38,946 nucleotides of DNA from Alistipes sp. (GTDB lineage: Bacteria > Bacteroidota > Bacteroidia > Bacteroidales > Rikenellaceae). Below are positions 1,557-30,594 of this stretch, piece after piece. The position numbers and the translations under genes were made by a program. Position 1 is the stretch's first letter, and every line of letters begins with the position of its first letter. The notes under the pieces were generated by a model. The model saw only the letters and a program-made list of their open reading frames with translations. It ran no database searches and was not told where the DNA came from. The DNA lies in contig JAFTNV010000026.1 in NCBI GenBank assembly GCA_017451685.1, positions 1 to 38,946 on the forward strand, read 5' to 3'.

Positions 1557-1589
1557 TAAAAGGGAGCCGTGCTCCCTTTTACTATTTTA
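1549..1589. terminator. Bidirectional terminator hairpin between convergent genes
   Basis: A perfect 19-bp inverted repeat (1549-1567 with 1571-1589) closes on a 3-base loop. The arms have a GC core (GGGAGC/GCTCCC) and A/T-rich flanks that supply a U-run in both directions. It overlaps the stop codons of both convergent genes, which fits a shared intrinsic terminator. Confidence 0.85.
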
Positions 1590-2658
1590 GCATGTTGTAG
1601 TGGCAATACATCAGCCGCCCCTCGTCGTCGCGCAGGTGCATGCCTCCGCCACGGCAGAACTCCCACACCTTGCACTCGGCACACTCGTCCTTATGTGCCC
1701 ACGCACGGTTGCGGAAGGGCTCAAACCTGTTCTGCCACACATCCCAGAAGTGGTCGCGGTAGATGTTGCCCTGCGTATAGTTGGCCCTCACGCTCGTGCA
1801 TCCCGAGATGTCGCCATTGACACGGATGGATGCCACCGACACTCCGGCAGTACACATGTAGAAGTGGTCACGCACCTCGGCCTCGTAGCCACCGAGGAAG
1901 CCCTCGCAGGCGTAGTTGAGCGCGATGCGCCCCTCCTTGCGTGTGCGACGTATAAACTCCATGAGCGTGCGGAACTCCTCGGCATTGAGGTGGAGCGTGT
2001 CGTCCCTCTTTGCGCGCCCCGCGGGGAATATCGAGAATATGCGCCAGCGTGTGATGCCCTCAGCGATTAAGAACTCCTTCCACTCCTCGAGGCGGTTGAG
2101 CATCGCGGGTGTCACGCACGTTATGGCATCGTACGTAAGACCTTCGACCTCGCGTATGTATCGCAGGGCCTGACGTGCGCGCTCGAAACTTAACGGGCTC
2201 TGGCGTATGTAGTTATGCTCGTCGGCAAAGCCGTCGAAGCTCACGGATATGGAGCGCAGACCGGCACGCACAAGACCGTCGAGGCGCTCGCGCGTGAGAG
2301 CCATGCCGTTTGTCACCATGCCCCAGGCGTAGCCACGGCGTGTGACCTCGCGCCCCGCCTCCTCGATGTCGCTGCGCACGAGAACCTCGCCTCCGGAGAA
2401 GATGATGAGCACACGCTTAGGGTCGACATTGGGCGTGACCTCCTCGTCCAGGACACGCAGGAAGTCCTCCAAGGGCATATCCCTCTCCGCGACATCCGTG
2501 CGGCAGTCGCTGCCACAGTGACGACACCTCAAATTACAACGAAGCGTACACTCCCAAAAGAGTGTACGCAACTCGTGGCGCTCCACCGTGTCGTCGTATA
2601 GGCCCTTAAATAGCTTGAGGCCTATATGCTTGCGGAGACCCAATCTCTTCCCCTTCAC
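1582..2658 (-). CDS. Radical SAM/SPASM enzyme of the rSAM/lipoprotein system
   Basis: A predicted peptide-modifying radical S-adenosylmethionine enzyme, cytoplasmic and Fe-S dependent. The N-terminal conserved block includes KHIGLKLFKGLYDD, followed by the 4Fe-4S/SAM motif CNLRCRHC (CxxxCxxC). A SAM-binding SGGE motif is present. The C-terminal third is a SPASM-type domain with many cysteines (FYMC, GC, CAECKVWEFC and YCHYN segments) that would bind extra Fe-S clusters. The sequence matches my memory of the TIGR04133 family, described as partner of a small lipoprotein, and the gene directly upstream is such a lipoprotein. An ATG at 2703 would overlap the lipoprotein gene by 32 bases. I prefer the GTG at 2658, just after the lipoprotein stop, because family similarity begins there. 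The modification it catalyses is not known to me. Confidence 0.88.
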   Translation of the reverse strand: MKGKRLGLRKHIGLKLFKGLYDDTVERHELRTLFWECTLRCNLRCRHCGSDCRTDVAERDMPLEDFLRVLDEEVTPNVDPKRVLIIFSGGEVLVRSDIEEAGREVTRRGYAWGMVTNGMALTRERLDGLVRAGLRSISVSFDGFADEHNYIRQSPLSFERARQALRYIREVEGLTYDAITCVTPAMLNRLEEWKEFLIAEGITRWRIFSIFPAGRAKRDDTLHLNAEEFRTLMEFIRRTRKEGRIALNYACEGFLGGYEAEVRDHFYMCTAGVSVASIRVNGDISGCTSVRANYTQGNIYRDHFWDVWQNRFEPFRNRAWAHKDECAECKVWEFCRGGGMHLRDDEGRLMYCHYNMLK

Positions 2659-2671
2659 GGCTGTCGTAGGG

Positions 2672-3124
2672 TTACTTCTGCTCGGTAGCAGCCTTGGCCT
2701 CATCCTCGGCCTTGATCATCTCCAATATCTCGGCTGCGCGCTCCTCGCTGATGACGATAGCCACGCGGCCATCGGGGAAGGGTACGCCGTTAAGCTCGCT
2801 AACGACCTCGGCCTTGACCTCCTCGGCCTTAATCATCTCCAGAATCTCGGTAGCACGCTCCGCGCTCACCTCGACAGCCACACGGCCATCGGGGAAGGGT
2901 ACGCCAGGGCGCTGATGCTGGGGATTCTCCTCGCTGATAGGTCGGGGGAAGCTGCCGTCGGGCATGGGCACGCCATACATCAACATCACGCGGTTGTCGA
3001 TGCCCTCGACCTCGACATTGTCGTTGGCCTTATCCTGCTTCTTCGAAGCCTTCTTCGTGCTACAGCATGCTGCGGTAGACAATCCGAGTACTGCCAAAAG
3101 GGCTATCTTCCATCTATAGTTCAT
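2672..3124 (-). CDS. Small lipoprotein partner of the radical SAM enzyme, with repeated GVPxPDG motif
   Basis: A 150-residue lipoprotein and probable substrate of the adjacent radical SAM enzyme. The signal peptide ends in a lipobox (STAAC, Cys20, with a second Cys at 21), followed by a lysine-rich stretch. A MYGVP motif at 49-53 recalls the MYGxP signature of lipoproteins in the rSAM/lipoprotein system (TIGR04134, from memory). The motif recurs as GVPMPDG (51-57), GVPFPDGR (74-81) and GVPFPDGR (113-120). The last two sit in a 39-residue tandem duplication that also contains a predicted helix ending EILEMIKAE. The usual members I recall are built differently, so this is an atypical, expanded partner. 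It is the first gene of the pair and its own promoter is at 3158-3189. Confidence 0.8.
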   Translation of the reverse strand: MNYRWKIALLAVLGLSTAACCSTKKASKKQDKANDNVEVEGIDNRVMLMYGVPMPDGSFPRPISEENPQHQRPGVPFPDGRVAVEVSAERATEILEMIKAEEVKAEVVSELNGVPFPDGRVAIVISEERAAEILEMIKAEDEAKAATEQK

Positions 3125-6704: not shown

Positions 6705-6758
6705 TGTAAGGGTCAAGTGATTTGTAAGGGTCAGGTGATTTGTAAGGGTCAGGTGATA
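6705..6758 (+). repeat. Three tandem 18-bp repeats in the leader
   Basis: The unit TGTAAGGGTCAGGTGATT occurs at 6705-6722 (one A/G change), 6723-6740 and 6741-6758 (last base changed). The repeats lie between the promoter and the nitroreductase start, 48 bases upstream of the ATG. Each has an AAGGGTCAGGTGA core, so they could bind a protein or influence translation. The array has no spacers and is not a CRISPR. Confidence 0.85.
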
Positions 6759-21548: not shown

Positions 21549-24500
21549 TTATTGGTTATTTGCCTCTAAGGCCTTCTGCTTCTGTGCGCGGATAAATGCC
21601 TCCTGCTGAGCCAACAAGCGCGCCTTGCGTGCTGCCTTACGCTCCTTGCGGCCCTCCAACATAGCGTAGAGCGCAGGAACGATGAAGAGCGTCAACAGCG
21701 TAGACATAAGCAGACCGCCGACAACCGCGATACCCATTGGCTGCCATATCTCCGAGCCCTCGCCGATACCCATAGCCATAGGCACCATGCCAAGGACGGT
21801 AGTGAATGAGGTCATAAGCACGGGGCGCAGACGGCTCTTACCACCGGCGATAACGGCATCCGCTACGGGCATACCACGCTCCACCAAGAGGTTCATATAG
21901 TCCACCATCACGATACCGTTCTTCGTAACGATACCCACAAGCATAATGGCACCGATAAGAGCAATGATCGACAGCGGTGTATTTGTGAGCCACAAGGCGA
22001 TAAATACACCCGACATAGCGAACGGCAATGTAAACATAATGATGAAGGGGTAGACGAGCGACTCGAACTGCGTAGCCATCACGATGTATACGAGCACGAT
22101 GATAAGAATCAACAACGTACCGATGTCGCCGAAGGCCTCGCCCTGATCCTCGATAGAGCCACCGAGCTCGAGCGTGATGCCCGCAGGAGCAGTATAGTCC
22201 GCCAAGAGAGCATTTACCTCAGCCACAGCGTCGCCAAGGGCTACATCAGCACCCACGGTACTCTCCACCGTAACGATACGCTGACGGTTCTCGCGCTCGA
22301 TCTCGGGTGATGAGAATACCTCCTGTACCTCGGCAACCTCCTTCAATCTGATAGGACGTCCCATAGAGGTGTAGAGGATGATATTTTCTACCTCCTCGAT
22401 ACTCTCGCGGAAGGGCTCGTCGTAGCGTACTACGATGTCGTACTCGTCGCCATCCTCGCGGTACTTCGAGCACTCGTAGCCATAGATGCGGTTACGGATA
22501 AACTGAGCAGCCGTGGCGCTATTGAGGCCGTAGTAGGCGAGCTTCTCGCGGTCGAAGACCACGTTGTACTCGGGCTGCAAGTCCTCACGCGAGAGCTTAA
22601 CATCGCGCAACGTGCTCAATGCCGACATCTTAGCCTGAAGATCCTTGGCCGTAGCCATGGCGTTATCCATGTTGTGACCAAACACCTTGATGTTCACGGT
22701 ACTTGCACCACCGCCCATGCCACCGCCACTGCCACCGGGTGATACGGTGAATTCGCGAATCTCGGGAATGGCGGCAAGATCCTTACGCAAATCATCCGAA
22801 ATCTCGAAGATTGTCGGGCGCTCCATATCCGAGAGTCGGGGCATACGCATATTGTAGTTGATGATATGCGAGCCCGTTGTCTGCATCGCTGCGAAGGCGT
22901 TGTCCGAAGAGCTCTCACCAGCAGAGGTAGACACCATGAAGATGTAGGGGTACTTCTCCGCGATGATAGAGTCTATCTGTCGTGCCACCTTCGAGGTGTA
23001 GTCCACGTGTACGTTCTGTGGCATCTTGATGCTCATCGTGATACGTGCATTATCCGAGGGCGGGAAGAACTCCGTAGGCACCTGGCGGATAAGCATCAAC
23101 GACACAGCAAAGATGGCAATAAGAACTAATACTGTTGTCTTCTTCCAGCGTACCACAAAGCGTAGCGATGCCTCATATACGCGGTCGAGCCAACGCAGTG
23201 CCTTGTCGATAGGCTTATAGATGATACCAATACCCTTGTACGTATGCTCACCACCGTCGAGCTTAAGCATATATGCCGACAACATAGGCGTAAGGGTGAT
23301 AGCTGCGGTTGTAGATACGCAGACAACGATAGTCACGATCCAGCCCAACTCTCTAAACATGATACCCGACATGCCCGGGAGCATCGTAAGAGGCATAAAC
23401 ACAGCTACGATAACGAGCGTCGTGGCGATAACTGACAACCATACCTCGTTTGTGGCGTAGATAGCCGCCTCCTTAGGCTTCGAGCCTCGCTCGATATGCG
23501 TGGTGATGTTCTCCAACACCACAATGGCATCATCCACAACCATACCGATGGCGATAGATAGCGCCGAGAGCGAGATGATGTTGAGCGTCGAGCCTACGGC
23601 ATATAGGTATATAAAGGCACAGATAAGCGAAATCGGGATTGTAAGACAGATGATAAACGTCGCACGCCAGCGTCCGAGGAAGATCATAACGACCAAGATC
23701 ACAAAGATGAAGGCGAACATAATAGTCTCGGCCAGCGAGTTGATAGCGTCGTTAATCTCGCGCGACGACTCGAAGATGGTCTCCACCTTACAGTCGGGCG
23801 GAAGCGTGGGGATGATTCTTTCGAGCTCCTTCTGCACATCCTCGATAATCTCCACGGTGTTTGCACCCGTCTGCTTTTGCACGATAACGCGCACACCCTG
23901 ACGGCCGTTGATGCGCTCGTCCATCGTCGCCTTCTCCAGCGTATCGCGTATCTCGGCAACATCCGTGAGCTTCACGGTGCGACCGCCGATGTTCGAGATG
24001 ACGATGTCGCGCAACTCACGCGAGTCGTCGAACTCCAAGTCCGACTTGAGGTTGAACGTCTGGTTGCCAAGGTCGAGGCTACCTGCCGGAATGTTGACAT
24101 TCTCGGCAGCGATGATACCACCAAGCGACTCGATGGTAAGGCCGTATGCCTCCAACTTCTTGGGGTCTACGTTCACCTGCACCTCGCGCTCACGAGCACC
24201 GATGACGGCCACCGAGCCGATACCGTTGATGCGGTTGAGCTCGTTTACCATCCTATCGTCGAGAATCTTAGCAAGGGCAGCGTAGCTCTCGTCCGCCGTG
24301 ATTGATAGCATCATGATAGGCATCATCGACGTCGAGAACTTCATGACGGTGGGGTACTCCACACCGTCGGGTAGGAGTGACTGCGAGCGGCTCACAACAT
24401 CACGCACATCGTTTGCCGCCTCCGTGAGGTCACATCCGTATTCGAACTCCATCGTCACGATTGATACGTTATCGGACGACTTTGAGGTAATCTTGTCGAG

Positions 24501-24728
24501 GTTATCGACAGAGTTGAGCTGATCCTCCAACACACGGGTGATGTTGGTCTCGATATCCTCGGCATTACCGCCCGGGTACATAGTGATAACACTGATGTAG
24601 GGCACCTCGATGTCGGGGAACTGGTCGACGCCGAGCTTATTCACCGAGAACAAGCCAAAGACGATGACCGCTATGAATATTAGCGCGGTAGAAATCGGTT
24701 TTCGTACCGCTGATTCGTAAATTTTCAT
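21549..24728 (-). CDS. RND-family (HAE1) efflux pump inner membrane subunit
   Basis: A 1059-residue AcrB-type drug/proton antiporter of the inner membrane. The N-terminal helix begins after MKIYESAVRKPIS, as in the family. Two large periplasmic loops are present, with TM clusters around 335-545 and 865-1030. The proton-relay Asp pair (Asp399 and Asp400) in AIGMVVDDAIVVLENI of TM4 is intact, as is the matching TM10 region with Gly-rich GIVTKNGIVMVDY. Length is typical. A Gly-rich segment near residue 670 is a family-variable loop. The partners are the MFP and TolC-like genes upstream in the same transcript. Substrates cannot be predicted; the TetR gene at the head suggests that the pump responds to a small ligand. 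Confidence 0.95.
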   Translation of the reverse strand: MKIYESAVRKPISTALIFIAVIVFGLFSVNKLGVDQFPDIEVPYISVITMYPGGNAEDIETNITRVLEDQLNSVDNLDKITSKSSDNVSIVTMEFEYGCDLTEAANDVRDVVSRSQSLLPDGVEYPTVMKFSTSMMPIMMLSITADESYAALAKILDDRMVNELNRINGIGSVAVIGAREREVQVNVDPKKLEAYGLTIESLGGIIAAENVNIPAGSLDLGNQTFNLKSDLEFDDSRELRDIVISNIGGRTVKLTDVAEIRDTLEKATMDERINGRQGVRVIVQKQTGANTVEIIEDVQKELERIIPTLPPDCKVETIFESSREINDAINSLAETIMFAFIFVILVVMIFLGRWRATFIICLTIPISLICAFIYLYAVGSTLNIISLSALSIAIGMVVDDAIVVLENITTHIERGSKPKEAAIYATNEVWLSVIATTLVIVAVFMPLTMLPGMSGIMFRELGWIVTIVVCVSTTAAITLTPMLSAYMLKLDGGEHTYKGIGIIYKPIDKALRWLDRVYEASLRFVVRWKKTTVLVLIAIFAVSLMLIRQVPTEFFPPSDNARITMSIKMPQNVHVDYTSKVARQIDSIIAEKYPYIFMVSTSAGESSSDNAFAAMQTTGSHIINYNMRMPRLSDMERPTIFEISDDLRKDLAAIPEIREFTVSPGGSGGGMGGGASTVNIKVFGHNMDNAMATAKDLQAKMSALSTLRDVKLSREDLQPEYNVVFDREKLAYYGLNSATAAQFIRNRIYGYECSKYREDGDEYDIVVRYDEPFRESIEEVENIILYTSMGRPIRLKEVAEVQEVFSSPEIERENRQRIVTVESTVGADVALGDAVAEVNALLADYTAPAGITLELGGSIEDQGEAFGDIGTLLILIIVLVYIVMATQFESLVYPFIIMFTLPFAMSGVFIALWLTNTPLSIIALIGAIMLVGIVTKNGIVMVDYMNLLVERGMPVADAVIAGGKSRLRPVLMTSFTTVLGMVPMAMGIGEGSEIWQPMGIAVVGGLLMSTLLTLFIVPALYAMLEGRKERKAARKARLLAQQEAFIRAQKQKALEANNQ

Positions 24729-24776
24729 CTCTCAAATAGTCTTCTTATTGCATTAACAACTATTGGATGTGTGTGG

Positions 24777-25793
24777 CTACTCGTTAACCACCTCTACAGC
24801 CTTGCCATCCATAAGGCGCACGAACGACGTTGTGGCAACCTCCTCGCCGGCATTCAGACCCTTGCGAATCTCCACTTTGTCGGCAACCTTACGACCATCA
24901 TCTACGAGACGATAGTTAGCCATGCCATTCTCGATAACGTATACGAAGCGCTCCGACGAGCCTGCCTGCTTCTGCACGGCGATATCGTCAATCATGACGG
25001 CCTCGCGCTGACCCATGTTAAACGTCGCGCGTGCATACATGCCGGGGCGCAGACGCTCGTTGCTGTTGGGGATTGTCACCTCCACGCCAAAGGTGCGTGT
25101 TGCGGCATCCAACGAGGGGTTTATGCGCGATACCTTACCCTCGAATACCTCGCCGGGGAAGATGTCTACGTGTATCTCTACGGGCTGACCAACCTTCACG
25201 TTGGGGTAGTACTGTTCCGATACGTTGGCCATAACCTTGAGCTTGTTAATCTGCATGATGTGGAGTATGGGCATGCCGGCAAAGAGGTCACCATTCTCGT
25301 AGTTACGTGCCGTCACGACACCCGAGATGGGCGACTTAATCTCCGAGTTCTTACGCATGTTTGCCACCATCTCCTTCTGGAGGTTGAGGGTATTCTCAAT
25401 CTCGATAAACTGCTGGTCTGAGATGCCGCCTGCCTCGTGTACGGGCTTCATGCGGTTGTAGCTATCCTCTACGGTGGCGAGGTTAATCTCGAGCTGCTTG
25501 AGGCTCGTGCGGTTGAGCGTGGCAACAACCTCGCCCTCCTTCACGCGGTCGCCCACGTCGAACTTGATATAGTCGATGTGCAAGCCCTGTGCTGCGGGGG
25601 TGATGTCGTTCTCCTTGTAGGGTAGAATCTCCGAGGTGTAGGTCTCCTTGAGGTCGATGGTCATAACCTCGGCCACGCAGCTCTTTACGGCCACGGCGCT
25701 CTCGGTCGTAGTCTCCTCGGTGGCTGTCTGCTGGTTCGAGTTGCAGGCAGCAAATGAGGCCGCTGCAACGATAAACATAATGTACTTCTTCAT
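24777..25793 (-). CDS. RND efflux periplasmic adaptor (membrane-fusion) lipoprotein
   Basis: A 338-residue HlyD/AcrA-type adaptor. The lipobox gives Cys17 (AASFAACNSN), so it is anchored in a membrane and bridges pump and outer channel. Domain order is visible: a beta-strand region with a lipoyl half-motif (YIKFDVGDRVKEGEVVATL), an alpha-helical hairpin (about 95-140), the second lipoyl half (IKSPISGVVTARNYENGDL), and the beta-barrel and proximal domains (KVGQPVEIHVDIFPGEVFEGKV). It lies between the TolC-like gene and the pump gene, in the usual order. Confidence 0.93.
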   Translation of the reverse strand: MKKYIMFIVAAASFAACNSNQQTATEETTTESAVAVKSCVAEVMTIDLKETYTSEILPYKENDITPAAQGLHIDYIKFDVGDRVKEGEVVATLNRTSLKQLEINLATVEDSYNRMKPVHEAGGISDQQFIEIENTLNLQKEMVANMRKNSEIKSPISGVVTARNYENGDLFAGMPILHIMQINKLKVMANVSEQYYPNVKVGQPVEIHVDIFPGEVFEGKVSRINPSLDAATRTFGVEVTIPNSNERLRPGMYARATFNMGQREAVMIDDIAVQKQAGSSERFVYVIENGMANYRLVDDGRKVADKVEIRKGLNAGEEVATTSFVRLMDGKAVEVVNE

Positions 25794-25826
25794 AATATTT
25801 GTATTTTTAATTTTTATCCCGTTGTG

Positions 25827-27182
25827 TTACTCTACATCTGAGGGTGTTACGTCCTCCACGCCAAGTGCCTTCTCGTACTCGGCATGTGCAGCGAGGTAGT
25901 TGTATATCGACTGCGAGTAGCTCAGCTGCGCCTGTGTGAGCGACAGCTGTGCGGTGTTAAGCTCGATGATGGTTCCCGCACCGGCGTTGTAGCGCGTGAG
26001 CGATATGTCGTATGCCTTCTCTGCCTGCTCCACCGTGAGCTCGTTGGCAAGCATCGTCTCGCGTGCCGTGAGCAGCGTGTTTATCGAGGCCTGCACCTGT
26101 AGGCGTATGCCCTCCTCGGCGTATGAGCGCTGAAGGTCGAGCTGTGCCATCTGGTTGCGCACCTCGCGGAGCTGGTTTGTCTTCTTCAATCCCGAGAAGA
26201 TGGGTATCGAAATCTGTGCACCTACAGATATAGGGTACTGCCACCAGAACTTCGACTGGCTCTCGGCAGCGGCACGTGTGCCTCCCATGGCGCCACCCAT
26301 AAGACCGCTGAGGTCGATACGCTCCTGACCGATGTACGATATTGAGCCAAAGGCTACCAACGAGGGCATGCGCGTAGTCTGGATAAGCTTCTCCTGATGC
26401 TCCAACAGTTCGCGCTGGAGGTCTAAGGTCTTAAGCGTGGTGTTCTCGGCAATATCTGTCGAGTAGTCCTCGCCAAGGAGCACCTCGGTGCGGAAGTCGT
26501 CGAGCGTGCCGCTAACCTCTATCTCGAGATCCTCGGGCAACGAGAGGTACATCTTGAGCTGTAGCTTGGTGATGTCGATGGCGGTCTCTGCCTGCAGCAC
26601 CTGAGGCTTGAGGTTTGAGAGCTGCACCTGCGCTGTGAGGTAGTCGTACTCCGAGGCAAGACCGTTGTCGTAGAGATCCTTGGTGTTGTCTACCACGCGC
26701 TGTGTTGTCGCTACAGCCTCGTTTAGCACCTCGAGCGACTGCTCCGCGAGGAGCACGTTGTAGTATGCCGAGCGTACCGCAGCGATGAGGTCTATGCGGT
26801 TGGCACGTGCGCTCTCCACGGCCGTAGCCATCTGCGTGCGTGTCATCTTCATCTGGCGGTATACCGAGGGTACAAAGAGGGGTAGCGATACGTTACCCGA
26901 CACGTTGAACGTGTTCTTACCACCAAACGAGAAGCCCTCGGTCATCTCCTGACGGCGAATAGCCAAGGCGTACTGTCCCGAGGCTTCAATCTGCGGGTAG
27001 AGTGTCGATGCTGCCTGCTTGTAGACATAGTCGTAACGCTCGACCTCCAAGTCGGCCACCTTGACGGTGGGGTTGTCGTTGAGTGCAATCTCTATCGCCT
27101 TGTCGAGCGTGAGCTGCACCTGAGCCTCTGCCACGCCAAGCGAGGCAAGACCCATACACATCATCATTAAAATCCTTTTCAT
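25827..27182 (-). CDS. TolC-family outer membrane efflux channel
   Basis: A 451-residue outer membrane efflux protein. Signal peptide residues 1-20 end at AEAQ. Two homologous halves of long helices with beta-strands follow, as in TolC/OprM. Family traits include LTLDKAIEIALNDNPTVK at the mature N terminus, YYNVLLAEQSLEVLNEAV, and RYNAGAGTIIELNTAQLSLTQAQLSY near the C terminus. It is the outer-membrane exit for the adaptor and pump encoded just downstream, and starts 73 bases after the regulator gene. Confidence 0.93.
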   Translation of the reverse strand: MKRILMMMCMGLASLGVAEAQVQLTLDKAIEIALNDNPTVKVADLEVERYDYVYKQAASTLYPQIEASGQYALAIRRQEMTEGFSFGGKNTFNVSGNVSLPLFVPSVYRQMKMTRTQMATAVESARANRIDLIAAVRSAYYNVLLAEQSLEVLNEAVATTQRVVDNTKDLYDNGLASEYDYLTAQVQLSNLKPQVLQAETAIDITKLQLKMYLSLPEDLEIEVSGTLDDFRTEVLLGEDYSTDIAENTTLKTLDLQRELLEHQEKLIQTTRMPSLVAFGSISYIGQERIDLSGLMGGAMGGTRAAAESQSKFWWQYPISVGAQISIPIFSGLKKTNQLREVRNQMAQLDLQRSYAEEGIRLQVQASINTLLTARETMLANELTVEQAEKAYDISLTRYNAGAGTIIELNTAQLSLTQAQLSYSQSIYNYLAAHAEYEKALGVEDVTPSDVE

Positions 27183-27255
27183 CCTATTATTTTGTTTATT
27201 TGTTTTATCTCGCTGATTGCTTGTTGCACTAACTATACTATAACGTACCGCAGAC

Positions 27256-27873
27256 CTAAATATTATCGAAATATTTCGTTTTGTAAGAGTCGAATGCTAT
27301 TTTACCCTTTTCGGTGCATAGCCCGCGTATGAATATGAGCAGAGCGTAGTACATCATGGCAATGAGTTCGTCCGACGGTGCCTCCTCGTGTAGCGTGTTT
27401 ATGAGCATGCCATGTACGGAGTTGTGCAGCAACTTTATGGCATACTCCTTATTTATATTAGGTTCGAAGTAACCATTTGCTACACAGTTGTCCATCCACT
27501 TTTCGAGGTCGTTGTACGACTTCGACTGCACGTCGTGCTCCAAGCGGCTGTATACCGAGGGGTAGAAGCGACGCATGTTGCGGCGCATGCGGCCGGCTAT
27601 TGGCGCAGCATCCATCATTCCGCGTAGACTGAGCATCATCACTTCGAGCGAGTTATCCACATCGGCAATCTCCTCCATGCGGCGCTCGCGTGAGGTCTCG
27701 GAGTAGTGGCGTATGCTCTGGTAGATAAGCTCCTCCTTGTCGCCAAAGAGTTCGTAGAGTGTTCGCTTCGAGATGCTTAGCTCCTGCGCGATGTCATCCA
27801 TGCGCACCGCCTTGATGCCCTGCTCGATGAACATCTTCGATGTGTACTTAATGATATCCTCCCTGTTTGCCAT
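27256..27873 (-). CDS. TetR/AcrR-family transcriptional regulator of the efflux operon
   Basis: A 205-residue dimeric regulator. Residues 4-50 form the TetR helix-turn-helix with the usual order: a first helix ending MFIEQGIKAVRM, DDIAQELSISKRTLYELFGDKEELIYQSI. The rest is an all-helical ligand-binding region with no recognisable ligand signature. It is transcribed ahead of the TolC-adaptor-pump genes and so likely represses its own operon. The ATG at 27873 was chosen because it starts the HTH domain and follows a good promoter; the 263-residue ORF from 28047 would run through that promoter. Confidence 0.92.
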   Translation of the reverse strand: MANREDIIKYTSKMFIEQGIKAVRMDDIAQELSISKRTLYELFGDKEELIYQSIRHYSETSRERRMEEIADVDNSLEVMMLSLRGMMDAAPIAGRMRRNMRRFYPSVYSRLEHDVQSKSYNDLEKWMDNCVANGYFEPNINKEYAIKLLHNSVHGMLINTLHEEAPSDELIAMMYYALLIFIRGLCTEKGKIAFDSYKTKYFDNI

Positions 27874-27882
27874 CTCTATACG

Positions 27883-27905
27883 TATATTTTCACGGTGCAA
27901 ATATA
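27883..27905. promoter_or_regulatory. Candidate TetR operator
   Basis: A 23-bp inverted repeat, TATATTT, nine bases, AAATATA, overlaps the -7 element and transcript start of the TetR gene. A second perfect palindrome, TATACGTATA (27877-27886), lies between this and the start codon. Binding of the regulator to either would block the operon. This is inference from position and symmetry. Confidence 0.45.
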
Positions 27906-27928
27906 GCGCAGAAAACTCAAAAAACAAA
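27898..27928 (-). promoter_or_regulatory. Promoter of the TetR-efflux operon
   Basis: On the minus strand TTTG (27928-27925), a 19-base spacer and TATATTTG (27905-27898) match the Bacteroidetes promoter exactly. The expected start near 27891 gives a leader of about 18 nt. Confidence 0.7.
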
Positions 27929-27986
27929 AAAAGTTTTATAGTTTTCGCGGTTTTCTTTGGTCGATTCTTCTGAAACACGAAAAAAG

Positions 27987-28019
27987 TATGCGAGTGACGC
28001 CCAACGCGCCACTCGCATA
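27987..28019 (-). terminator. Terminator of the 350-residue lipoprotein gene
   Basis: TATGCGAGTG and CACTCGCATA pair perfectly over 10 bp, with a further partial inner stem. Read on the minus strand it is followed by CTTTTTTCG, a U-run. It lies 66 bases past the lipoprotein stop. Confidence 0.8.
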
Positions 28020-28085
28020 ATTGGCAATTTGTTCGTGACAAATCCACCTATGTCTACTCGCTACTCAAACCTCGCTTACGGCTAT

Positions 28086-29220: not shown

Positions 29221-30594
29221 TTATAGTTCATATACAATATACGAAACATTGAGATTATAGTTTCGTTCCATATTTGAATCTAAATCATTTTCTTCGCGAA
29301 ATTCATCAAATTTATCAGATGCGACATCAAATGCACCAGGCAAATAATATCCATCACCTTCTCCATCCCAACCAAAATTAACATGTACAAGGTCCAACTT
29401 ATGCTGAACATTATCTACTCTAAGTGACGAACTCCCAAGGGCACCAGTAACGACATTGAGAGTATACTGCAACCTCAACCATCCGTCAATATTAAAATAA
29501 TGCGTATATTTACTTTCATTATCTTCTCTCGTGGCACAACAATCAACAGGATAATTCTTGTCAACAATCATCAAGAATAATGAATCTATTGCATTACTAC
29601 TACTATTATACATTCTTCTTACATTTGATAAGCCAATTTTGTTATACACGTACATTATACTATCAACTGGAGTACCTGTCGAAGAGGTAGAATATGTAGC
29701 ATTTGCCTCTTTCCCAATTGCCCGAATGAGTGTTGCAACCGCTCGTGAGCCCGGTGTAATTTGTCCACTGTTATATTTGACCGTATCAGCATATATAAGT
29801 CTATTAATCGCATACCAATCAACCTCATACTCCGAATTTATCTCTATATCTGGTCTAAAATTATGACGATAGCATAATGATGCTAATGTTTGAGCTCCTG
29901 CCACAGGGACACAACCCGCAACACAGACAATGCCATTCTGTATAGGTGAATACATATTGTATGGGCTATACTGACCCCATTTTACTGGAATAAGTGGATG
30001 ACACTTGACTAACATTGTTGTATCAACCCCCGTTTGCTGTATTGAGCCAGAAGGAATTGTTGGGGTTAATCCGGTTATTGTAAGCGCATTGTTTACCATG
30101 GTATATTGCATCTCTTGTGCAGGGGTTATCTCCTCACTGGTGCGAGTGGATATTTCACCGCTAATATATTGTAAGAACTCTTTGGTAGAGAATGTGCCGT
30201 TATCACCGATTGCAATAATAGGAGGTAGTTGCTCATCAGCTGCAAGAATGGCATAACCTTGATTATCAGCATAATTTACAACATACGCAAGAGGGCTTTC
30301 TTTTACTCCATTACTGTCCTTTGAGCGTGTCGCCACTGCTGATGTTAGGTCTGCAGATGTTAGCAAATCTACCTTGCTAATACGGCGTGTTTTATTGGCG
30401 ACACCTTCGGTATTGCTAAATATAAAATTTGCATTTCCAATAGCATTCTCAAAAGATAATGATGTTTCGAGGTACTCAACGCCATCCTGACCCTGAACAT
30501 CTATCGTATTTTGACTTGTAGTTGGCTCTGTCTGCTTAACGCATGAACATGTAAGAGTAATTATTACAATTAGGTATAAGTATAAATTTTTCAT
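29221..30594 (-). CDS. C10-family (streptopain-like) cysteine protease lipoprotein
   Basis: A 457-residue exported protease. The signal peptide ends in TCSC, so Cys16 or Cys18 would carry the lipid. Residues of about 40-190 form a pro/inhibitor-like region with the sequence YADNQGYAILAADEQLPP, as in Spi/streptopain prodomains. The catalytic domain has VKWGQYSPYN, a nucleophile Cys228 in CVAGCVPVAGAQ, His365 in YTHYFNIDGW, and VNFGWDGEGDGYY near residue 405, all family marks. It is distinctly AT-richer than genes outside this block. A small ORF of unknown role precedes it by 37 bases. The substrate is unknown; relatives in Bacteroides and Streptococcus cleave host proteins. Confidence 0.88.
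   Translation of the reverse strand: MKNLYLYLIVIITLTCSCVKQTEPTTSQNTIDVQGQDGVEYLETSLSFENAIGNANFIFSNTEGVANKTRRISKVDLLTSADLTSAVATRSKDSNGVKESPLAYVVNYADNQGYAILAADEQLPPIIAIGDNGTFSTKEFLQYISGEISTRTSEEITPAQEMQYTMVNNALTITGLTPTIPSGSIQQTGVDTTMLVKCHPLIPVKWGQYSPYNMYSPIQNGIVCVAGCVPVAGAQTLASLCYRHNFRPDIEINSEYEVDWYAINRLIYADTVKYNSGQITPGSRAVATLIRAIGKEANATYSTSSTGTPVDSIMYVYNKIGLSNVRRMYNSSSNAIDSLFLMIVDKNYPVDCCATREDNESKYTHYFNIDGWLRLQYTLNVVTGALGSSSLRVDNVQHKLDLVHVNFGWDGEGDGYYLPGAFDVASDKFDEFREENDLDSNMERNYNLNVSYIVYEL

Follow-up and report, generated by a model that had tools for sequence, protein, structure and literature searches.

A conserved X-Tyr-Gly motif in the lipoprotein partners of TIGR04133 radical SAM enzymes suggests a splicease-like reaction before export

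The 38,946-nucleotide stretch of DNA from Alistipes sp., a gut bacterium, analyzed here (contig JAFTNV010000026.1; referred to as the window) carries a gene for a small lipoprotein directly upstream of a gene for a radical SAM enzyme with a SPASM domain, which raises the question of whether the enzyme modifies the lipoprotein and, if so, at which residues and by what chemistry. A first-pass annotation had singled out this pair as the most likely place in the window for unexplained chemistry. The choice appears sound. TIGR04133 and TIGR04134, the families to which the pair had been assigned, form a curated pair to which no reaction has been assigned by name (hypoth_equivalog in NCBIfam). The features of the locus are as follows.

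2672..3124, minus strand: partner lipoprotein of 150 amino acids (sequence, alignment)
3068..3124, minus strand: lipoprotein signal peptide, residues 1 to 19, followed by C20; its LGLS is a form of the partners' LGFS motif
2972..2980, minus strand: M49-Y50-G51, the single XYG and proposed splice site (sequence, partner comparison)
2960..2980, minus strand: MYGVPMP, conserved block of the mature protein (23-row alignment)
2789..2905, minus strand: repeat copy 1, residues 74 to 112, GVPFPDG without Tyr (repeat analysis)
2675..2788, minus strand: repeat copy 2, residues 113 to 150, GVPFPDG without Tyr (repeat analysis)
1582..2703, minus strand: TIGR04133 radical SAM/SPASM enzyme (ATG open frame; likely start, GTG 2658)
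2515..2538, minus strand: radical SAM CxxxCxxC motif (C56, C60, C63) in CTLRCNLRCRHCGS (sequence)
1603..1854, minus strand: SPASM region, conserved cysteines C284 to C367 (Pfam scan, alignment)

Both reading frames were as annotated, the lipoprotein gene preceding the radical SAM/SPASM gene on the minus strand, and the proposed pairing of a SPASM enzyme with a small lipoprotein was borne out. The enzyme is a full member of TIGR04133, scoring 568.6 bits (E, 4e-171; cut-off, 425) over residues 23 to 372 and profile positions 1 to 349 of 350, and it matched both Radical_SAM and SPASM in Pfam. Since the TIGR04133 homology begins near GTG 2658 (residue 23 in the ATG frame), this GTG is likely to be the enzyme start rather than ATG 2703. 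It sits 13 nt past the lipoprotein stop codon; a start at ATG 2703 would overlap the lipoprotein gene. The neighbors of the pair, an OmpA-family protein and a cold-shock protein on the other strand, suggest no further partner. The three neighbor genes that were scanned, two of them from the OmpA and cold-shock families and the third unmatched, included no recognizable RRE or PlpY-like gene; small RREs can escape detection. Phage records gave no match at an E value of ≤1e-20.

Assignment to the TIGR04133/TIGR04134 system held for the enzyme and for the adjacency of the lipoprotein gene but failed for the lipoprotein itself, which had no TIGR04134 match at an E value of ≤1 (cut-off, 39.8 bits); the model also found nothing in the rest of its contig. 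TIGR04134 does match two proteins elsewhere in this genome (G000; 43 contigs, 80.6% complete), at 77.6 and 56.1 bits. A second TIGR04133 gene is located at C23:105437-106483. Two consecutive TIGR04134 lipoprotein genes lie upstream of it, and this canonical locus spans C23:105437-107453 (L001, L073). Because it is also present, the window pair represents a second, divergent system of the genome. The TIGR04134 lipoproteins of G000 carry the motifs AEYGCP and PMYGAL on a body that Pfam matches as Ig-like, weakly and below threshold. The window pair thus resembles canonical TIGR04133/TIGR04134 systems in having a full TIGR04133 member next to a lipoprotein gene, and XYG occurs in canonical TIGR04134 partners too; unlike them, the window lipoprotein has no Ig/CarboxypepD-like body and contains Tyr-less GVPFPDG repeats.

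The window lipoprotein has a lipobox up to C20 and MYGVPMPDG at residues 49 to 57. Its structure model is largely disordered (mean pLDDT, 68; pTM, 0.23); at this low confidence, MYGVP is without secondary structure and the repeats precede helices at residues 88 to 105 and 127 to 149. Surface export was considered and not favored, as the positive stretch CCSTKKASKKQD does not resemble the acidic LES, the surface-export signal used for comparison (accessible part of PMC5080379); this makes it tentatively the likelier arrangement that the lipoprotein faces the periplasm.

As described in the first pass, the lipoprotein contains one MYGVP, three GVPxPDG motifs, and one 39-residue tandem repeat. 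GVPFPDGR begins at residues 74 and 113, the period is exactly 39, and 25 of 39 residues are identical. The local score is 121, whereas 1000 shuffles reached 55 at most. TRF (minimum score, 30) detected no array over the repeat, and the copies share 74 of 96 nt across 32 codons, an identity that indicates an old repeat visible at the protein level. The copy number varies among relatives, a point that the first pass had proposed to check: the 37 repeat-type proteins each have 1 to 4 PDG-like units (first one counted). The accompanying proposal, that the repeated motifs provide several modification sites with Pro or Asp as the targets, was not supported by the comparison. YG is present in the first PDG-like copy of all 37 proteins and in only 4 of 50 later copies (L057, L100, L102, and L103); the later copies in the window, PGVPFPDG and NGVPFPDG, both lack Tyr. 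Several modification sites in the window lipoprotein are thus unlikely. Moreover, PDG units were seen in just one partner group, mostly ruminant-gut Alistipes, so we rejected modification of the repeats as the preferred reading. Pro and Asp are not what all partners keep; X-Tyr-Gly is shared by nearly every one. The GVPFPDG-helix repeats resemble copies of the site unit that have no Tyr, and they would probably serve as spacer or binding parts rather than as further sites.

This conservation was assessed in a set of 182 TIGR04133-like enzymes, all distinct, which was drawn from the fetched loci and is biased to Alistipes. An adjacent upstream lipoprotein-like gene was found for 168 of them. 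YG is present in 164 of these 168 partners, always within the first 90 mature residues, a share of 97.6% compared with a shuffle mean of 17% (maximum, 24.4%) and with 14 of 83 control lipoprotein-like genes taken from these loci; partners in one class are homologous, so these counts are not independent. YGxP occurs in 122 of the 168 partners and in none of the 83 controls. The residue before Tyr varies (M, 98; C, 26; E, 18; V, 7; K, 6; L, 4; A, 4; I, 1), and the only other frequent residue across scaffolds is Pro two positions after Gly (119 of 164). Most adjacent proteins have a single YG (122 proteins); 42 have two (36), three (4), or four (2), some perhaps by chance, and 4 have none (L154, L074, L175, and L141, which looks like a spurious frame). 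Counting any lipoprotein-like gene within 2.5 kb upstream, 171 of 182 enzymes have a YG partner, and the total reaches 177 with L157 and L205, missed by the rule used here, and with the partners located downstream of the enzyme (L173, L180, L189, and L212). The remaining five are L136 (CYAPYD), L088 (contig end), L091 (upstream frame not intact), and L175 and L195, where no partner was seen. X-Tyr-Gly, and not GVPxPDG, is the element common to nearly all partners.

The association also holds in the opposite direction, as all loci of the 30 best matches to the window lipoprotein in the genus (window included) hold the enzyme. The partners' signal peptides carry the motif [LFI]G[FILM][STGAF] in 114 of 149 cases, compared with 6 of 82 controls (shuffle mean, 11), a frequency partly explained by shared descent; a branch with CYG carries a different signal sequence, likewise recurring. 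At L136, an apparent second radical SAM gene (CxxxCxxC) lies immediately upstream of the TIGR04133 gene, with the CYAPYD lipoprotein further up.

YG is found on several unrelated scaffolds, classified by eye as Ig-like TIGR04134 bodies, short tails, and the stretch before PDG repeats; many partners are approximately a signal peptide, a linker, and MYGV with little else. Coiled-coil-like lipoproteins at L079, L082, L084, and L087 carry one or two REGxxVYGSPE-like units beside TIGR04133, and at L089 YG is present on three successive short lipoproteins. The L082 lipoprotein has an additional ALYGVPVP at its end. In most of L193 to L211, and also on a Treponema plasmid, YG directly follows the lipobox cysteine (QACYGTPQD and similar), so that in this CYG branch Tyr is preceded by the lipidated Cys itself. 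The partners at L173, L180, and L189 have no lipobox and show AQYG after the signal peptide.

Closer relatives of the window lipoprotein were found by searching 180 genomes of the genus, which gave matches at an E value of ≤0.001 in 79, its own genome included. Both repeats are present in five close relatives (G218, G220, G118, G174, and G147); other matches have a shorter repeat part, and most weak ones are confined to the N-terminal half. The 80 loci of relatives reveal a gradient of lipoprotein types: in the cultured Alistipes strains at L114, L117, L120, and L132, lipoproteins of 89 to 109 residues continue from MYGV[PR]xP without PDG repeats, and the mostly ruminant-gut group has MYGVPxPDG and a total of 1 to 4 PDG-like units. 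Across a 23-row alignment hand-picked from the no-PDG and PDG-repeat types, the residues invariant from C20 on are C20, K24, M49, Y50, G51, V52, and P55. Eight genomes (G046, G054, G072, G081, G087, G093, G101, and G123) have TIGR04133 over the cut-off with a short MYGV lipoprotein beside it, those of G054 and G072 being read through loci L120 and L117, and no TIGR04134 match at an E value of ≤0.001. The window lipoprotein is a repeat-bearing form of these short lipoproteins, which lie beside many Alistipes TIGR04133 genes. TIGR04133 itself exceeds its cut-off in 116 of 200 Rikenellaceae genomes and in 60 of 295 genomes of the window's order. A pair outside Bacteroidota is present on Treponema saccharophilum plasmid pTS1 (L229), where it adjoins a serine recombinase gene.

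Which reaction might take place at such a motif is suggested by the PlpX-type spliceases, for which XYG is the splice site from which tyramine is excised (accessible parts of PMC10533398 and PMC11002830). The accessible text of PMC11002830 describes PlpX as a SPASM enzyme (IPR026482) that has the RRE protein PlpY as its working partner. In that of PMC10533398, PlpXY excises a tyramine equivalent (C8H9NO) at natural MYG and LYG sites, with a dispensable leader and a printed loss of 135.0757 Da; computed by hand, the mass of C8H9NO is 135.068. One precursor can undergo several splicing events (PMC10373908, as accessible), and a further 27 characterized and 939 predicted splicease systems have been reported (PMC10533398, accessible part, its reference 40, taken to be Scott et al. 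2022). TIGR04133 may already be covered there. Literature searches with TIGR04133, with the name of the lipoprotein, and with splicease plus lipoprotein returned nothing on the pair among the listed matches. The accessible parts of PMC8326336, PMC9415263, PMC9484694, PMC10885120, PMC11117315, PMC10036551, and PMC10352776 contained nothing on TIGR04133, as was the case for that of PMC8939145, in which the lipoproteins are unrelated.

We compared the enzymes in a tree of 45 hand-picked rows, comprising 18 TIGR04133 enzymes, 13 PlpX-like enzymes, and 14 others (MftC, PqqE, NirJ, TIGR04053, TIGR04347, AhbD-like, and unnamed); the tree is unrooted, and several rows are skewed in composition. A branch with 100/100 support separates the TIGR04133 and PlpX-like rows from the 14 other SPASM enzymes. 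TIGR04133 itself forms one group at 100/100, and its stem is long (1.77). This group could be either the sister of the PlpX-like rows or nested in them. Six residues (G64, W220, G268, G271, E274, and R278) are common to TIGR04133 and ten PlpX-like rows and rare in the 14 others; G64 of HCGS is present in 18 of 18 TIGR04133 rows, 10 of 10 of those PlpX-like rows, and 0 of 14 others. The other 3 of the 13 PlpX-like rows (L218, L221, and L223) keep W220 and G268 and are without G64, G271, E274, and R278. Given the long stem and the presence of WRxF...GRA in TIGR04133 in place of the WQxQ...MGN of most PlpX-like rows, the chemistry of TIGR04133 may differ.

Against TIGR04103, to which we take PlpX to belong, the window enzyme scored 107 bits, below the cut-off of 725, and NCBIfam scored NirJ2, AhbD, TIGR03913, and TIGR04053 above it. 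In NCBIfam scans of TIGR04133 enzymes, TIGR04053, AhbD, or NirJ2 came ahead of TIGR04103, and TIGR04053 was the second-best family for two other TIGR04133 enzymes. For PlpX-like enzymes of the same phylum, TIGR04133 ranked third after TIGR03913 and TIGR04103 in two of three and fourth in one. A tblastn search of 72,556 plasmid records with the window enzyme yielded nine matches at an E value of ≤1e-20, three of them TIGR04133-like (one record unannotated) and six annotated as TIGR03913-type (three), TIGR04103-type (one), or radical SAM protein (two). In the tree, four of the six (Nostoc, one Azospirillum, Aureibacter, and Agathobacter) lie on the PlpX-like side; the remaining two, both from Azospirillum, carry TIGR03913-type annotations. 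At an E value of ≤1e-6 there were 142 records, and beyond those nine the strongest match was 6e-19 (best 60 of 142).

Several PlpX-like enzymes likewise have XYG nearby. The C terminus of a Nostoc Nif11 precursor reads ALYGLPPELF, RPYGPA occurs near an Azospirillum enzyme, and an unannotated Agathobacter frame ends in PVMYGTGVRM; in Aureibacter, one of three peptides has QPYGAG and the other two LYAAG and MYAAS. IMPYGVAV and TVLYGVGI were found at L213 and LLYGTPPV at L215. No XYG partner was seen near the PlpX-like loci L214, L216, L218 to L224, and L236. At L217 (2955-3596), a 214-residue protein with KYGYPC five times follows a PlpX-like radical SAM gene in a genome from the same order.

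With PlpX-type spliceases (TIGR04103) and TIGR03913 enzymes, the window pair shares the same half of the tree, the residues common with 10 of 13 rows, and XYG in several partners; those systems use a Nif11 or NHLP leader peptide, whereas the window pair has an exported lipoprotein, no recognized RRE gene nearby, and an enzyme far below the TIGR04103 cut-off. MftC, PqqE, NirJ, anSME, and SkfB resemble the window enzyme in fold and cluster motifs but act on other substrates, and MftC, PqqE, and NirJ fall outside the TIGR04133 and PlpX-like half of the tree; the tree as a whole has no anSME or SkfB row. The enzyme model, which is confident (pLDDT, 87.2; pTM, 0.87), retrieved SPASM peptide maturases in general (SkfB, SuiB, anSME, and ChlB) in a fold search, among which no entry was named splicease, a result that excludes nothing; of the seven sequences that the Nostoc TIGR04103 enzyme retrieved from the PDB, none bore that name either. 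A helix at residues 8 to 27 precedes the radical SAM domain and could contact the membrane or the signal peptide; the N termini of L217, L230, and L232 are too short for it.

We infer that the lipoprotein is the substrate and, from sequence comparison, lean toward a lipoprotein-directed, splicease-like enzyme that would act once, at M49-Y50-G51. Iron-sulfur radical enzymes usually act in the cytosol, ahead of export, and the TIGR04133 enzyme would accordingly modify the lipoprotein precursor there, before Sec export. Recognition may be aided by the conserved signal peptide, and translational coupling across the 13-nt gap would help modification to come before export. Most of Y50 would be cut out of the backbone in one splice, with a predicted mass change of about -135.07 Da. 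Once exported and lipidated at C20, the product would display its reactive alpha-ketoamide close to the membrane, on a disordered linker. Any end use, such as that of a tethered protease inhibitor or of a crosslinker, is guesswork.

The enzyme might instead carry out another radical reaction at YGxP, such as a Tyr crosslink, a change at the Gly alpha-carbon, or oxidation, with no excision of tyramine. Conservation of YG marks a site and not a reaction, TIGR04133 has its long stem and its own sequence traits, and the modeled fold is that of SPASM peptide maturases generally. Nevertheless, we regard such chemistry as rather unlikely: Gly is not epimerizable, a crosslink partner for Tyr is not obvious when the only other frequent residue is the Pro two after Gly, and the tree places no other rows as close to TIGR04133 as the PlpX-like ones. 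Splicing is favored over other YG chemistry by tree position and motif jointly and is proven by neither.

It is more doubtful still that YG is a docking motif and that the modified residue lies elsewhere, for example in the GVPFPDG repeats. The joint conservation of signal peptide and motif does recall leader-type recognition, and close relatives retain the repeats, but many partners offer little beyond signal peptide, linker, and MYGV, the PDG repeats were seen in a single group, and by eye no other residue is common to the scaffolds. Least probable, to the point of being hardly credible, is an unmodified lipoprotein that serves as a tether or sensor for an enzyme with another substrate. The few enzymes without a visible partner (L175 and L195) would fit this role, yet the gene is adjacent at 168 of 182 enzymes, the dipeptide is nearly invariant on changing scaffolds, and every one of the 30 loci found by the lipoprotein holds the enzyme.

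Splicing at M49-Y50-G51 remains our preferred reading. The likely substrate site is narrowed to one dipeptide on many scaffolds, the TIGR04133 enzyme is placed with the spliceases, and a widespread family without a known job gains a testable role. By extension, and with the case for and against evenly balanced, TIGR04133 would be a large splicease lineage whose substrates are membrane lipoproteins that have yet to be exported. Many Bacteroidota, together with at least one Treponema, would then carry envelope-anchored, backbone-spliced ketoamide proteins, and in the CYG branch the lipidated Cys itself would be homologated. If true, protein backbone splicing would be a common trait of the Bacteroidota envelope and would place reactive ketoamides at the membrane.

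Elsewhere in the window, we observed a Peptidase C10 with a Spi-type inhibitor domain (29221-30594), RND-type efflux genes (AcrB-like, HlyD-like, and OEP) with a TetR-type regulator (21549-28047), and, in an intergenic region (6705-6757), approximately three near-identical 18-base tandem copies.
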